Part shown: positions 21,025-34,147 of the stretch, in pieces
How the letters are laid out: every line of letters begins with the position of its first letter
Position numbering within the stretch: the stretch's first letter is position 1
Virus record (IMG/VR): IMGVR_UViG_3300048772_000102
Location: 1 to 34,147 of that record
Origin: a virus
Length of the DNA: 34,147 nt
Strand: one strand, 5' to 3'
Program-made: the position numbers and the translations under genes
The notes under the pieces: model-generated
The model's database searches: none
What the model saw: the letters and a program-made list of their open reading frames with translations, nothing else
What the model was told of the DNA's origin: nothing

Positions 21025-22215
21025 TTACTGCGGGACGCGATACACTTCGGCTTCGGTGATATTGCACTTGCCGTTGACCGAGATCATGGCCTTCTGGAAG
21101 TCGATTTCTTTCGTCTCCACTCGATAGTCGGGGAAGACCGTGTACTCGATGTCCTGACTGGAACACGGCGGGACATACTCGATCTGGACTTGCACGCTAT
21201 ACGGCTGGCACGGGTCCACCGGGTCCGACGTAACCCACTCGGCCGCACCGAGTTCTCCCTTGAGGGCGTCGATGGGGCTCAGGGGCTCGCCGGTGCCAGT
21301 CGTGATGTGCTCGTAGACGGCCTCAAACTTCATGTCCACGGGCACTTCGTTGCCTTCACGCACGGCGTCCAGGTTGCCACGTTCCAGGTCGTACTTGTAT
21401 TCCTTCTTTTCGGTATAGGTCAGGTTGCCTTCACCGATCTTGATGGCCAACTGCTGGGCCTGGAAGGTAATCACGTCGCCAACGGCATACGTGCTCGATG
21501 CCGCGCCGATGGCCGGCGAAAAGGTGATCGAAGCTGTCTGGTCCGGCGAAGTGCCAACCTGAATTTCAGTCACCGTGACAGCCGTAGACGAGCTACCAGT
21601 TAGCGCTAAACCGTTGCCGACAAGCAGTTGTTGCGGGGCGTTTCCGAGCGCGCCCTGGAACTCAACAGTCCAATAAGCCGGGCCGACCGGACCACTGGGA
21701 CCGGTGGGGCCAAGTTCAGACGGTTGGTAAGTCGCGACGAAACAGTTGGCAAGACCTATCAGCGAATTCAAAGCCGATTGCACGGCCGATGCTGACGCAT
21801 TGTAAGCGATAGGAATGGTCGTCAACTCACCGAAGGACAGCGTAAACGTGCCGCCTGTCGGCTCATCGGCCTCGGAACCGGTCGGGCCGGTCGGACCTGT
21901 GCCGCCAGTGACTACGCCGGGCAACTTGATTTGCTGTATTTCATTTGTGCCGACACCCGTGGCCTGTACGCGGGACTGGACGACGTGGACCGGGTTGTTG
22001 GCTTCCGAGGCCAGCGTGAAGCGGGCACCGACAGGAATCTTCTGATGATTCTTCGCACGCGGAATATAGACACTACTCACGTCAAGCGACGTGTCGCCGT
22101 TCACGGCGGCGGTCGTGGCAACTTCGGCGGTAGCGCCGTCGCCGCCTACGACAGAGGGCAGCCCGAGGCCGTCCGAAAGGGTGATCGTGCAATAACGTAA
22201 CTCGATACGAGCCAT
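21025..22215 (-). CDS. Major tail tube protein with inserted beta domain
   Basis: 396 residues. The N-terminal ~90 residues and the C-terminal ~130 form one tube-like unit: it opens MARIELRYCTITLSDG and closes with ERGNLDAVREGNEVPVDMKF, a Cys-containing YVPPC segment and a KAMISVNGKCNI end. Between them about 130 residues form a separate module, GGTFTLSFGELTTIPIAY, NASASAVQSALN, WTVEFQGALGNAPQQL and VTVTEIQVGTSPDQ, flanked by GPTGPTG and GPTGPSGPVGP linkers. That module is a repeat-like beta domain of phage and environmental bacterial surface proteins. The GAGAGAA site precedes the ATG. Position before the chaperones fits the tube protein. The insertion would sit on the outside of the tube. 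Tube identity rests on position and architecture. Confidence 0.75.
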   Translation of the reverse strand: MARIELRYCTITLSDGLGLPSVVGGDGATAEVATTAAVNGDTSLDVSSVYIPRAKNHQKIPVGARFTLASEANNPVHVVQSRVQATGVGTNEIQQIKLPGVVTGGTGPTGPTGSEADEPTGGTFTLSFGELTTIPIAYNASASAVQSALNSLIGLANCFVATYQPSELGPTGPSGPVGPAYWTVEFQGALGNAPQQLLVGNGLALTGSSSTAVTVTEIQVGTSPDQTASITFSPAIGAASSTYAVGDVITFQAQQLAIKIGEGNLTYTEKKEYKYDLERGNLDAVREGNEVPVDMKFEAVYEHITTGTGEPLSPIDALKGELGAAEWVTSDPVDPCQPYSVQVQIEYVPPCSSQDIEYTVFPDYRVETKEIDFQKAMISVNGKCNITEAEVYRVPQ

Positions 22216-23901: not shown

Positions 23902-25309
23902 TTAGCCTTGGAGCACGACGGCGAGGTTGGTGTCCAACACCGCGACACCCGCGAGGATGTCCAGGTTGACCACGGTGCCGCCGTTGGCGATGCTGTACTG
24001 CATCGAAACTCGCATGGCGATGTCGTTGTAGACACCGACATGGCTCAACACGCCCATCGCGTTGTTGGGAATGGCCAAGGGCCGTGTCACGAGAGCGATG
24101 GCGTTGCGATGGAACGCGAGGTTCATCGCACCGGCAGGGCCGGGGAACGCCAACTGGCCGCCCGTCAGGGCACCGACCAGGGGCCGGTCGAGAATGACGG
24201 TAACGGCGCTGCCGTTGGACGGGTCCAGGTAGGACTCGATCACGGTGTAATTGACACGGGCCGAAGGAGTCGTGCCGAAAGAGAGCAACTGACCCACGGC
24301 CGGAGCCGCGAAAGTCGGGTCGCCCGCGTGGGCCACGAGAACGATGCCGGCCACGTAGCCAGCCGCATAGGCCGCGCCGGTCGCGCAAGCCTTGTAAATG
24401 GCTACGGCCGCACCTGCGGCGGTGGCGTACTTGTTGGGCTCGTTCAGGTCGATGGCCGTGGACGGGGCCGCGCCGGTGACGGCTGTAATCCACGTCGGCT
24501 GGTCGTTGCCGGACACGACGGCGAACTCGCCGACATTGGCGGTGTAGGACGCCGTGAGGGTCACGCCGTCATTACCGTTGCCGGTGACCTGGGTCACGCC
24601 AGACGCCACGGCACTCGTCACGGTGCCGGCCACAACGTCGGTCGGAGCCGCGCTGTTGACGTTCTGGTCCATGTACGTGTCGAAGCCGAGGATACGGCCG
24701 AGAGTCGCACTCTCCAACGCCGTACCGAAGTCACCGCGCTGCTGAGCCGCGATGAACAACTCGTTCTTCAACAGGGCGGTTTCGCTGATCGGGGCCAACA
24801 CGAGGTTGCGGCCTTCCAGCGGAGCCTTGTTGACGTTGAGTGTCTGGCGGGCTTCCAGCACGTAATCCTTGCTGTTCGCGGCACTCAGGTTGCCGAGACG
24901 GCCAACGCGAGCATACGGGTTGCCAACGTAGGTCGGAACGCCGTTGACGCCGCCGTTGAGGAATTGGTGAACCTGACCGAGCACAGCGCGGTCAACCGAC
25001 CGGGCAATCGTAATCATACCGGGCCGGAGGTAGATGTCCACCAAGTCTTGGAAGGACTGGCTGGCCTCGCCGTCCAGAATGGTGAAGCTGTTGTAGAACC
25101 ACTGGTTCAACGGCACTTGCACGTTGGTCGCCTGGGCGTCCTGATTGCTCAGGGCGATCCCGTCCGCCTTGCGGCGAATCTGGAAGGTGCCCGGCCGACG
25201 TGTGTTCACAACGTCGCCGAATTGGCGAATTTCATTCTCGAAGTCCCTGTGAACGAGGTTCGCAATGACCATATTCTCTTGAAGGATTGCGAGCCCCTCG
25301 TTTGCCCAA
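23902..25309 (-). CDS. Major capsid protein, exon 2 (P22 coat-type)
   Basis: This is the main coat exon. The first exon lies at 25985-26052, and the join gives 491 residues. Taken alone, an ATG at 25272 appears to start a 456-residue protein, but that start has no ribosome site and truncates the conserved N-terminus. Upstream of it the frame stays open and reads WANEGLAILQEN, the missing part of a P22-type coat N-terminus. It continues ANLVHRDFENEIRQFGD and NTRRPGTFQIRR, then a DLVDIYLRPGM helix, a region matching an inserted I-domain-like segment, and a conserved C-terminal beta layer. Residues of the HK97 fold would form the icosahedral shell. It is followed by a terminator. Splice sites are described in the intron entry. 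Confidence 0.9.
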
Positions 25310-25984
25310 CGATCTGTTACCCATTCGAGGGATGGGGTAAGTCATTTCTGCTTACCTCTGCATGTCGCCATGCAGATCAGACTATATCTTCACCCGTTGC
25401 TTGGCAAATCGTATGCAGCATTCAAGTCGCCTTAAATGGCCTGCCGATTCGTCTCGCAAAGTATGGTTGCAATAAAGACAAATAACACCAACGACTTTGC
25501 TACCTATGTGGTGGATATGTTTGTGAGTCTGTTTCTCAAACTCACGACCACAACACTCGCAAGTTTTTGCAGCGTAATACTTCTCAGCCTCGGCCCGTGT
25601 AATCTTGTAACGAGACATGGCTTTATGAAGACGCTGACAACTCTTGCAGTAGCTATATGGCTTTCCACTTATGTTGGCAAAATCACTGACAGGCTTCCAC
25701 TGGTTACAGTCAGAGCAATGTGTCAAACCGTCTTTGACGGTTCGTATCCAGCGCTCCTGTGAATCTGACCAATGGTAGCCAACTGTATCTTTATGCTTCC
25801 TCTGCTTCTTCGGGGCGGTGCGTGTAGTCGTTGAGGGTTCCCTTGCGGGCCTTCCCTGCTGATTGTCCGCAGCAACTAGATTTTTACGATCAGTTAATTC
25901 GTACTGTTGCATACTCGGAGATTCCAGCATATAGCACCGTTTATTAGTTGCACGTCACCGTGCAAGGAACCTTGGGTCTATCTA
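25310..25984 (-). ncRNA. Group I intron in the major capsid gene
   Basis: 675 nt between GGAACU (end of exon 1, 25990-25985) and UUGGG (start of exon 2). P1: exon GGAACU pairs with intron GGUUCC (25972-25967) with the obligatory U.G at the splice site. P10: intron CCCAA (25977-25973) pairs with exon 2 UUGGG. The intron ends in G. P2 is a 7-base stem with a GUGA loop (25949-25966). P3 pairs CGGUGC (25940-25935) with GCACCG (25821-25816). The conserved R-like element CAACGACUACACG lies at about 25820-25833 and an AAAGAUACAGUUGG element, the P7 partner, at 25779-25792. A P9-type hairpin with a GCGA loop lies at 25358-25375, with a second stem at 25336-25356. Both tetraloops are GNRA. The structure is inferred by eye, but splice-site agreement is strong. 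The intron carries an endonuclease ORF. Confidence 0.92.
25382..25930 (-). CDS. Intron-encoded endonuclease VII-type homing endonuclease
   Basis: 182 residues from ATG 25930; no ribosome site is clear. The catalytic part begins near residue 66: CSDCNQWKPVSDF, then YCKSCQRLHKAM (a zinc-binding CxxC pair), then CECCGREFEKQTHKHIHHIG, VVGVICLYCNHTL and a helical end. This is the endonuclease VII/HNH layout: zinc cysteines, the His-His catalytic pair and the Asn-His before the last helix. Such enzymes cut an intronless allele near the insertion site and spread the intron. The first ~60 residues overlap the ribozyme core (P3-P7), so a shorter protein is possible; a TTG at about residue 68 (GLTHCSDC) is one alternative. 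Confidence 0.8.
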   Translation of the reverse strand: MLESPSMQQYELTDRKNLVAADNQQGRPAREPSTTTRTAPKKQRKHKDTVGYHWSDSQERWIRTVKDGLTHCSDCNQWKPVSDFANISGKPYSYCKSCQRLHKAMSRYKITRAEAEKYYAAKTCECCGREFEKQTHKHIHHIGSKVVGVICLYCNHTLRDESAGHLRRLECCIRFAKQRVKI

Positions 25985-26052
25985 AGTTCCGGGATGAACG
26001 CCGTGTTGTCGTTAGCAAAGCAAACGAGACGAGCGCGATAGTTAGGATTCAT
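25985..26052 (-). CDS. Major capsid protein, exon 1
   Basis: 68 nt encode 22 residues and two thirds of a 23rd codon. The ATG at 26052 has GGAG seven bases upstream. The peptide begins MNPNYRARLVCF and ends FIPE; the split Leu codon is completed by the first base of exon 2, giving FIPEL-WANEGL. FIPEL followed by a W-A-x-x-x-L-x-I-L helix is the usual beginning of P22-type coat proteins, so the join is natural. Without splicing, the frame hits a stop at the first intron codons, so the intron must be removed to make the coat protein. The RARLVCF segment is also in the scaffold N-terminus. Confidence 0.9.
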
Positions 26053-26215: not shown

Positions 26216-27121
26216 CTAGACATTCCGGCGCTTGTCACGTCGAAGGCCGAGCAATTCAGGGTTCTTTGCTCGAATATCGGCATACTGCTGCGGTGTGAGG
26301 TTCTTCACATCCACCTTGCCGGTACTTCCCAGCGCGGTGCCGCCTGTGACTGAACTCGAACCAATGCCCGAGACCACTCCGCTCTTGAACAAGTTGCCGT
26401 AAATGGCGGCCAACTCTTTCATTCGCTTCACGGCCGATTCAGGCGTGTGTAAGGTGATAACCGGCTCTCCCGTTGTGGGATCGGTGTCAGGGAAATCGAC
26501 TACCACCTTGAACTTGCCGGTGCCCTTGCCGGTCTTCTCGTCCGTGACTTCGTTGATACGAGTCATCTGACGGAGAATCGTCACGACTTGGGCCGGCTGG
26601 AAAGAATCGCCGGTCACGGCGGCATCCTGCAACGCCCGTTCGACCATGCTTTCCCGAAAACGGTTTTCCCACTGGACGCGACCCTTCTTTTCCTCTTCGA
26701 GTTTGGTCTGGTACTGCTCTTCCAACTGTTTGCGGTCGTGGGCGGCTTGCTGATCCTTGGTCCGTGTCTCCTTCTGCATGTCTTCCAACCGTTGAGCCAG
26801 TTGCTCGCGCTCCTGGGTCGTCAGGTTCTTGCTGGTGAGCGTCTCTTCCAACGTCTGTTGGATTTTGACGACCTGGGCTTGATGCTTCCGGCGATCCTCA
26901 GCCAGAATCTTATTCAAGTCTTCCTGCGTAAACTTGGCGGGCTCTTGGATGTTCAAACCAGCGCCGCCGGCGGCAGCGGCAGCGGCAGCAGCCTGTGCCT
27001 TCGCATCGGCAGCAGCCTTGGCGGCAGCAGCCTGAGCGGCGGCAGCGGCAGCAGCCTGAGCGGCGGCATCGTCACCATCGAAACAAACCAAACGAGCGCG
27101 ATTGATAAAGCTGTTCAACAT
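26216..27121 (-). CDS. Capsid scaffolding protein
   Basis: 301 residues. The first ~14 residues are MLNSFINRARLVCF, with RARLVCF shared with the coat protein. An Ala-rich stretch follows (about residues 18-50), then a long charged coiled coil (FTQEDLNKILAEDRRKHQAQ, QEREQLAQRLEDMQKE, KQLEEQYQTKLEEEKKG) and a polar C-terminus with DKRRNV. Length, charge and position upstream of the coat gene are those of scaffolding proteins, which guide coat assembly and then leave the procapsid. AGAGGT precedes the ATG. The basic C-terminus is typical of coat-binding scaffold ends. No protease motif is present. A perfect inverted repeat overlaps the stop region. Confidence 0.85.
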   Translation of the reverse strand: MLNSFINRARLVCFDGDDAAAQAAAAAAAQAAAAKAAADAKAQAAAAAAAAGGAGLNIQEPAKFTQEDLNKILAEDRRKHQAQVVKIQQTLEETLTSKNLTTQEREQLAQRLEDMQKETRTKDQQAAHDRKQLEEQYQTKLEEEKKGRVQWENRFRESMVERALQDAAVTGDSFQPAQVVTILRQMTRINEVTDEKTGKGTGKFKVVVDFPDTDPTTGEPVITLHTPESAVKRMKELAAIYGNLFKSGVVSGIGSSSVTGGTALGSTGKVDVKNLTPQQYADIRAKNPELLGLRRDKRRNV

Positions 27122-28620: not shown

Positions 28621-29775
28621 TCAGCTTCGCGTTAGCCAGTGATTATCAGGGTCATCGTGCGCGGCATACCAACCCTCGCCCCACAAATCCATGAGTTGAT
28701 TGAAGTAGGTCTCATACTGCCACTTCACGTTGTCCATCGCATATTTGGCGACGGCTCGCTCGTGGATGTATCGGGGGTCAAGAGTGTGGACATTTTGGGC
28801 TGCGTGAACGAATTCGTTCATCGTCCGACACCGGAAGCCGGTCTTGCCATGCTCCACAGTCTCAGGAAAGGCTCCGAAATCGGTTGTGATTGCCGGGGTG
28901 CCAGTGAGTTGACTTTCGACATTCGTGCCGCCGAAAGGCTCAATGTACGTGGTCGGGACGAACGTGGCCTTGGCTCTCTGATAGAGCCTTGCCCGTTCCA
29001 CGCCGCCGACACAGCCGACGTACTCAATGTTGCCTTCGTAAACCTCTCCATCCGCACAACGGATTCGCTGGCCGCCTGGGATGTTCTCAACACCGACGCA
29101 GCCTTGGCCGGCAATAACCAGTTTGGCTCCAATGCGTTTACACGCTTCAACCGCAATGTTGATGCCTTTCCTCTTAATCAGTCTCCCGATATAGAGGTAG
29201 TAGTCCGTTTTCTCCGTACAGAGCGGGAAGTCGGCCGGGTTAAAGTAGTTCGGAATCACGGCGTCAAAGAACTTGCCGTCCGGGTCGTAGCCGCCCTCTG
29301 CGCCCCATAACTTGTGCATGTGACAGTAGGACTCGAAGACCCGATACTTGGCGAACGTGCCGTTATAGCCGATGCCGGTCTCAACGACGAACACTTCTTT
29401 TCGGAGTTGTGCGGCAAGAGCCTGTTGCAAGTTGCCGAAAGCAAAGCTAACAATGTCCTTCGGCTGTGCCCGCTTGTTAATTTCGGCGGCGGCCCGGTCA
29501 CTCGTCAGCTTCCAGTACGGAGCCTTACCGGACCAGTCGGCGCTATACATGGCATCTTTGTTGAACGGACCAAAGAACCCTGTCTGTTCTTTACGTGAAA
29601 TGATCTGTACGTGTTCGTCACACGCAACTTCGCTGCCTTCGGCCCCATAATGGATTACGGTGTGGCCAAGGCTTTTCATCATCTGGCCGAACTTGAGAAT
29701 CTTCATCGTGAAAGCACAGGCAGTGTGCATCTTGTGCGTCTGCGTGTGCGGCAAACCGATAATGTGAAAACGCAT
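28621..29775 (-). CDS. GT4-family glycosyltransferase
   Basis: 384 residues, a complete GT-B enzyme. The N-terminal domain opens MRFHIIGLPHTQT and holds SFAFGNLQQALAAQL. The C-terminal domain has DYYLYIGRLIKRKGINIAVEA, then KLVIAGQG, a donor-binding segment with EPFGGTNVE (the E-x7-E motif of GT4 retaining enzymes) and ITTDFGAFPE. It would transfer a sugar from a nucleotide-sugar donor in the cytoplasm. GGGAG precedes the ATG. The acceptor is unknown: phage proteins, DNA bases or host surface glycans are possible. It lies between the fibre genes and the head-tail connector, so modification of virion proteins is plausible but unproven. Confidence 0.85.
   Translation of the reverse strand: MRFHIIGLPHTQTHKMHTACAFTMKILKFGQMMKSLGHTVIHYGAEGSEVACDEHVQIISRKEQTGFFGPFNKDAMYSADWSGKAPYWKLTSDRAAAEINKRAQPKDIVSFAFGNLQQALAAQLRKEVFVVETGIGYNGTFAKYRVFESYCHMHKLWGAEGGYDPDGKFFDAVIPNYFNPADFPLCTEKTDYYLYIGRLIKRKGINIAVEACKRIGAKLVIAGQGCVGVENIPGGQRIRCADGEVYEGNIEYVGCVGGVERARLYQRAKATFVPTTYIEPFGGTNVESQLTGTPAITTDFGAFPETVEHGKTGFRCRTMNEFVHAAQNVHTLDPRYIHERAVAKYAMDNVKWQYETYFNQLMDLWGEGWYAAHDDPDNHWLTRS

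Positions 29776-32241: not shown

Positions 32242-34147
<1,906 letters not shown>

Follow-up and report, generated by a model that had tools for sequence, protein, structure and literature searches.

An uncultured tailed phage whose P22-type coat gene holds a group I intron with an endonuclease-like reading frame

A coat gene in two parts

The locus raises the question of where the coat protein of this phage begins. In the window (the whole stretch of DNA analysed, 34,147 nt), a 456-aa ORF starting at ATG 25272 resembles the P22-type coat family (Pfam P22_CoatProtein, PF11651; 73.9 bits), but only from profile position 24 onwards, in line with an earlier sequence-only reading, according to which this ORF lacks a normal P22-type N-terminus. 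That reading had placed the missing part in a short upstream exon, separated from the remainder of the gene by a group I intron (Table 1), and had proposed alignment with intronless relatives and a search with the Rfam group I model as checks. The junctions were borne out by both. Exon 1, preceded by a Shine-Dalgarno-like GGAG (as read from the sequence), encodes MNPNYRARLVCFANDNTAFIPE plus two bases, and when joined to exon 2 it gives an open frame of 491 aa that scored 82.3 bits against the same profile (curated cut-off 24 bits), from profile position 3. The joined product was collinear through FIPEL/WANEGL with intronless coats, a large family in scans of IMG/VR in which FIPELWANEGL or near variants of it run uninterrupted. 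The closest intronless coat (L002) was 76% identical to the spliced product and starts like exon 1 (MNPLYTTRARIVCFDNDNTAFIPELWANEGL), while a coat of about 90% identity (L001) had this intron in an identical position.

Table 1. Features of the interrupted coat gene, in window positions.
Feature	Positions	Strand	Remarks
Coat gene exon 1	25985..26052	minus	68 nt; 22 codons and two extra bases
Group I intron	25310..25984	minus	675 nt, last base G; RF00028, covariation, empty sites
Coat gene exon 2	23902..25309	minus	Pfam PF11651 and phrog_283 (major head protein)
Intron ORF	25382..25930	minus	182 aa, EndoVII/HNH-type, probable homing endonuclease

That translation might simply start at ATG 25272, the 0.8 kb upstream being a separate gene region, is suggested by the length and family match of the ORF found there, but such a start would forgo 35 residues conserved in intronless relatives and would leave both the Rfam match (below) and the exact junctions unexplained; we consider it very improbable, and an ORF called from ATG 25272 represents coat exon 2 only in truncated form. 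An intein or an artefact of assembly is less probable still. Although the window comes from a metagenome contig, the same insert occurs at the same site in several contigs, and an intein is ruled out by the reading frame, since in unspliced RNA the exon 1 frame reaches a stop after 24 codons, just past FIPEL, and the nuclease is encoded in a different frame.

Directly upstream of the coat gene lies an ORF (26216-27121), scaffold-like by its position, that starts with nearly the coat's own peptide (MLNSFINRARLVCFDGDD versus MNPNYRARLVCFANDN). Across 88 related loci the leader likeness persists and is specific to the locus, with a mean score of 39.4 with the partner from the same locus, 28.3 (sd 0.8) with partners from other loci and 14.9 with letter-shuffled leaders, values that are uncorrected for kinship among the loci and that suggest a shared, co-evolving leader of the upstream ORF and the coat. 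Elsewhere in the window a collagen-like tail fibre gene (GATGPTG repeat; 32242-34140) and a phage glycosyltransferase gene (phrog_3408, 1.9e-83; 28621-29775) were found. Because a scan of genome contigs returned only coat relatives of 29-32% identity, no host was assigned.

Ribozyme core and splice-site pairings

The Rfam search matched the full RF00028 model (1-253) to positions 25994-25358 on the minus strand with 55.9 bits (E 9.3e-12), above the gathering score of 50, and RF00028 was the sole Rfam family at gathering level within the window. All pairings claimed earlier were verified: P1 (GGAACU/GGUUCC, 6 bp, with a U.G pair at the 5' site), P10 (CCCAA/UUGGG, 5 bp) and P3 (CGGUGC/GCACCG), together with the terminal G and two hairpins with GNRA tetraloops (GUGA in P2 and GCGA in P9). 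The last base of exon 1 is U and that of the intron (25984-25310) is G, and a U before the intron and a G at its end were found in 12 of 12 related introns.

The cores of these 12 introns were aligned under a structure comprising P3, P4, P5, P6, P7, P8, P9 and P9.1, in which 95.0% of the cells were paired. Both sides had changed in 24 core pairs, relative to 13.9 in shuffles, and the covariation score was 0.478, relative to 0.164 when shuffled and at most 0.087 with slid partners. As the structure was partly drawn from the window sequence and checked on the same rows, it has an advantage over its slid versions, and the changes on both sides (in P3, P4, P5, P6, P8, P9 and P9.1, with P7 nearly invariant) are the stronger support for the core. 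P3 covaried unbroken across the 12 introns and the P9 loop was GNRA in all rows, while one pair in P8 was a C/U mismatch in 12 of 12 rows, which makes P8 shorter by one pair.

Base pairs in P1 and P10 were counted in the unaligned introns, because MAFFT shifts the guide sequence by one base in some rows. In what follows, site A denotes the site of the window intron and site B a position 7 nt downstream, after TTTGGGCT or a close variant. The guide sequences partly track the exons: GGAACU/GGUUCC in the window corresponds to GGAGCU/GGCUCC in L085, and the site B intron of L092 has the guide UUCUUG with exon CAAGAA. P1 was weak (3 bp) in L084, and by script little or no P10 was found in L034, L085, L086 and L094, for which our own reading alone gives shifted P10 pairings.

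Taken together, the RF00028 match, the uninterrupted relatives, introns at the same site in independent contigs and the covariation of the core identify a group I intron at the proposed junctions. While the intron, its boundaries and its structure are established by sequence and comparison, splicing in the cell is predicted from them, and we regard the explanation as a whole, a mobile 675-nt intron that would splice itself out of a P22-type coat message in a tailed phage, as very likely. In the folded pre-mRNA the intron guide GGUUCC would pair with GGAACU of exon 1 to form P1; guanosine would attack at the U.G pair, and exon 1 would then attack past the terminal G at 25310. The ligated message would be translated into the 491-aa coat protein, and unspliced RNA into 24 aa before the stop. 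Since phages usually make more coat protein than any other product, efficient splicing of this message is required.

The intron-encoded reading frame

The sequence-only reading overlooked both a 182-aa endonuclease-like ORF within the intron and the family-wide hot spot described below. The ORF extends from within P4 to a TAG stop located in the 3' strand of P7, so that roughly 40 residues at its N-terminus correspond to translated core RNA. A region resembling a zinc finger at the N-terminus is followed by CxxC-HIHH-CxxCN at the C-terminus, and the ORF matched the PHROG families phrog_2633 (endonuclease VII, 3.6e-9) and phrog_2255 (HNH, 3.8e-9); the match to Pfam Endonuclease_7 (E 0.0026, 18.1 bits) was under the curated cut-off of 23.6. 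For a weak AlphaFold model, the best structural matches included Hpy99I and T4 endonuclease VII, the latter found by Foldseek with a probability of 0.80 but an E-value of 0.33. No relatives of the ORF were found by tblastn across 50,697 phage records. The ORF retains N155 and the zinc cysteines, but not all residues of the DHHRN motif, as HIHH stands in place of DHDH and, by our own reading of the alignment, V147 would occupy the EndoVII arginine position, which is R in L067. Because of these two substitutions the ORF is referred to as EndoVII/HNH-like and not as a DHHRN member.

Comparison with the intron ORF of L001 gave a dN of 0.061 and a dS of 0.39 (dN/dS approximately 0.16), and 0.059 and 0.48, respectively, outside the core; judged by these rates, the ORF is under purifying selection. 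A homing endonuclease is probably its role. The protein would probably cleave coat genes that lack the intron in relatives infecting the same cell, near the FIPELWANEGL codons, and repair of the cut allele would copy the intron in. Nuclease activity is probable given the selection on the ORF, and homing is suggested indirectly by the patchy presence of the intron, with at least eight changes in intron presence on the coat tree (below). An intron that still splices but has become immobile, its ORF a relic passed on by vertical inheritance, appears unlikely: decay of this kind does occur, the ORF of L094 being devoid of the HNH part and nuclease active site, and the window ORF starts inside P4 without an obvious ribosome site, but the latter ORF is intact, has kept its CxxC, HH and CxxCN residues and shows the low dN/dS given above, and the patchiness on the coat tree speaks against vertical inheritance.

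Two insertion sites and their bearing on known introns

Site A introns were present in the window, L001, the L067 group, L084, L085, L086 and L093, and site B introns in L034, L092, L094 and L147 and as the second intron of L093; two further site B cases (L169 and the ORF-less L192) are cut off and were assigned from the 3' junction. Introns at both sites have the same core, and their ORF content ranges from none to one or two nuclease domains. In the long introns of L034, L147 and L093 (922-934 nt) a single frame with two EndoVII-like domains is read through the core, one domain lying between the P5 strands and the other in the P8 loop. On a tree of 117 coats, on which the introns are patchily distributed, at least eight changes in intron presence were counted, which suggests repeated gain and loss.

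Both sites are occupied in the coat gene of L093 (1796-3399), where introns of 670 and 927 nt, matching RF00028 with 50.5 and 60.0 bits, respectively, are separated by a 7-nt micro-exon (TTGGGCT, 2466-2472), and the spliced frame reads YIPELWAQEGLAILEENM. This arrangement was seen in one contig only, and no other tandem pair emerged from a pattern scan. We lean towards a reading in which the FIPEL-WA-NEGL codons are a landing pad with two sites for one group I lineage that gains or loses EndoVII-like domains read through its core, the 7-nt exon of L093 having to pair in P10 of the first intron as well as in P1 of the second, an overlap that would force the order of splicing. Within a partial coverage of the literature, no precedent was found for introns parted by very short exons or for an adjacent-site pair with a micro-exon.

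Introns of this kind, short and ORF-less, were also observed elsewhere. L190 (3485-3982) has two in tandem with seemingly identical cores, which may be real or an assembly effect, and L189 (3941-4158) has one in the same gene. In L193 (4242-4768 and upstream) several ORF-less group I introns stand in a row in another gene, two of them above the Rfam threshold and a third core visible in translation. In L194 (3905-4125) an ORF-less intron splits the N-terminus of a major tail protein homologue (MARIELR/YCTITL), a gene of which the window holds an uninterrupted copy (21025-22215).

The sequence-only reading had called introns in coat genes rare, a remark that needs tempering. A group I intron in a capsid gene was demonstrated in mycobacteriophage LittleE by RT-PCR and N-terminal sequencing (PMC3706429), where lactococcal phage Tuc2009 is cited as well, and a report on crAss-like phages describes group I introns with nuclease ORFs in MCP genes, sometimes several per gene (PMC7886860). 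Known homing endonucleases with the EndoVII motif (DHHRN) include F-CphI and intron-encoded members in Yersinia phage Berlin and LUZ24 (PMC6083498).

LittleE resembles the window in that its major capsid gene holds a group I-type intron encoding a nuclease, in having relatives that lack the intron, and in the U that precedes and the G that ends the intron. However, the LittleE ORF is LAGLIDADG-like and runs on the other strand, whereas that of the window is of EndoVII/HNH type, on the sense strand and overlaps the core; the window coat, unlike that of LittleE, is P22-type, and its splicing is deduced from sequence where that of LittleE was shown experimentally. The crAss-like introns are similar in carrying nuclease ORFs and in occurring at times several to a major capsid gene, but belong to a different phage order, and the available portion of their description notes no sites 7 nt apart with a micro-exon (PMC7886860). 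With the DHHRN endonucleases (F-CphI, Berlin, LUZ24) the window ORF has in common the C-terminal EndoVII-like motif, the zinc CxxC pairs and, for some of them, being encoded in an intron; their host gene is a polymerase or psbA instead of a coat gene, and the window differs in HIHH for DHDH, in V for the arginine and in relatives that carry two domains per ORF. Given these precedents, the window intron belongs to a known kind; capsid-gene introns and intron-encoded EndoVII-type endonucleases are already known, and what is less expected is the two-site hot spot.

When such contigs are annotated, the N-terminus of the coat will be lost or mis-called if the intron goes unrecognised. The family also constitutes a natural series on splicing, with many empty sites, a pair of occupied sites spaced by 7 nt, introns that carry zero, one or two nuclease domains, one nuclease in decay and a single micro-exon pair; if the reading of L093 is true, the overlap of its pairings would dictate which intron of a highly expressed gene is spliced first.
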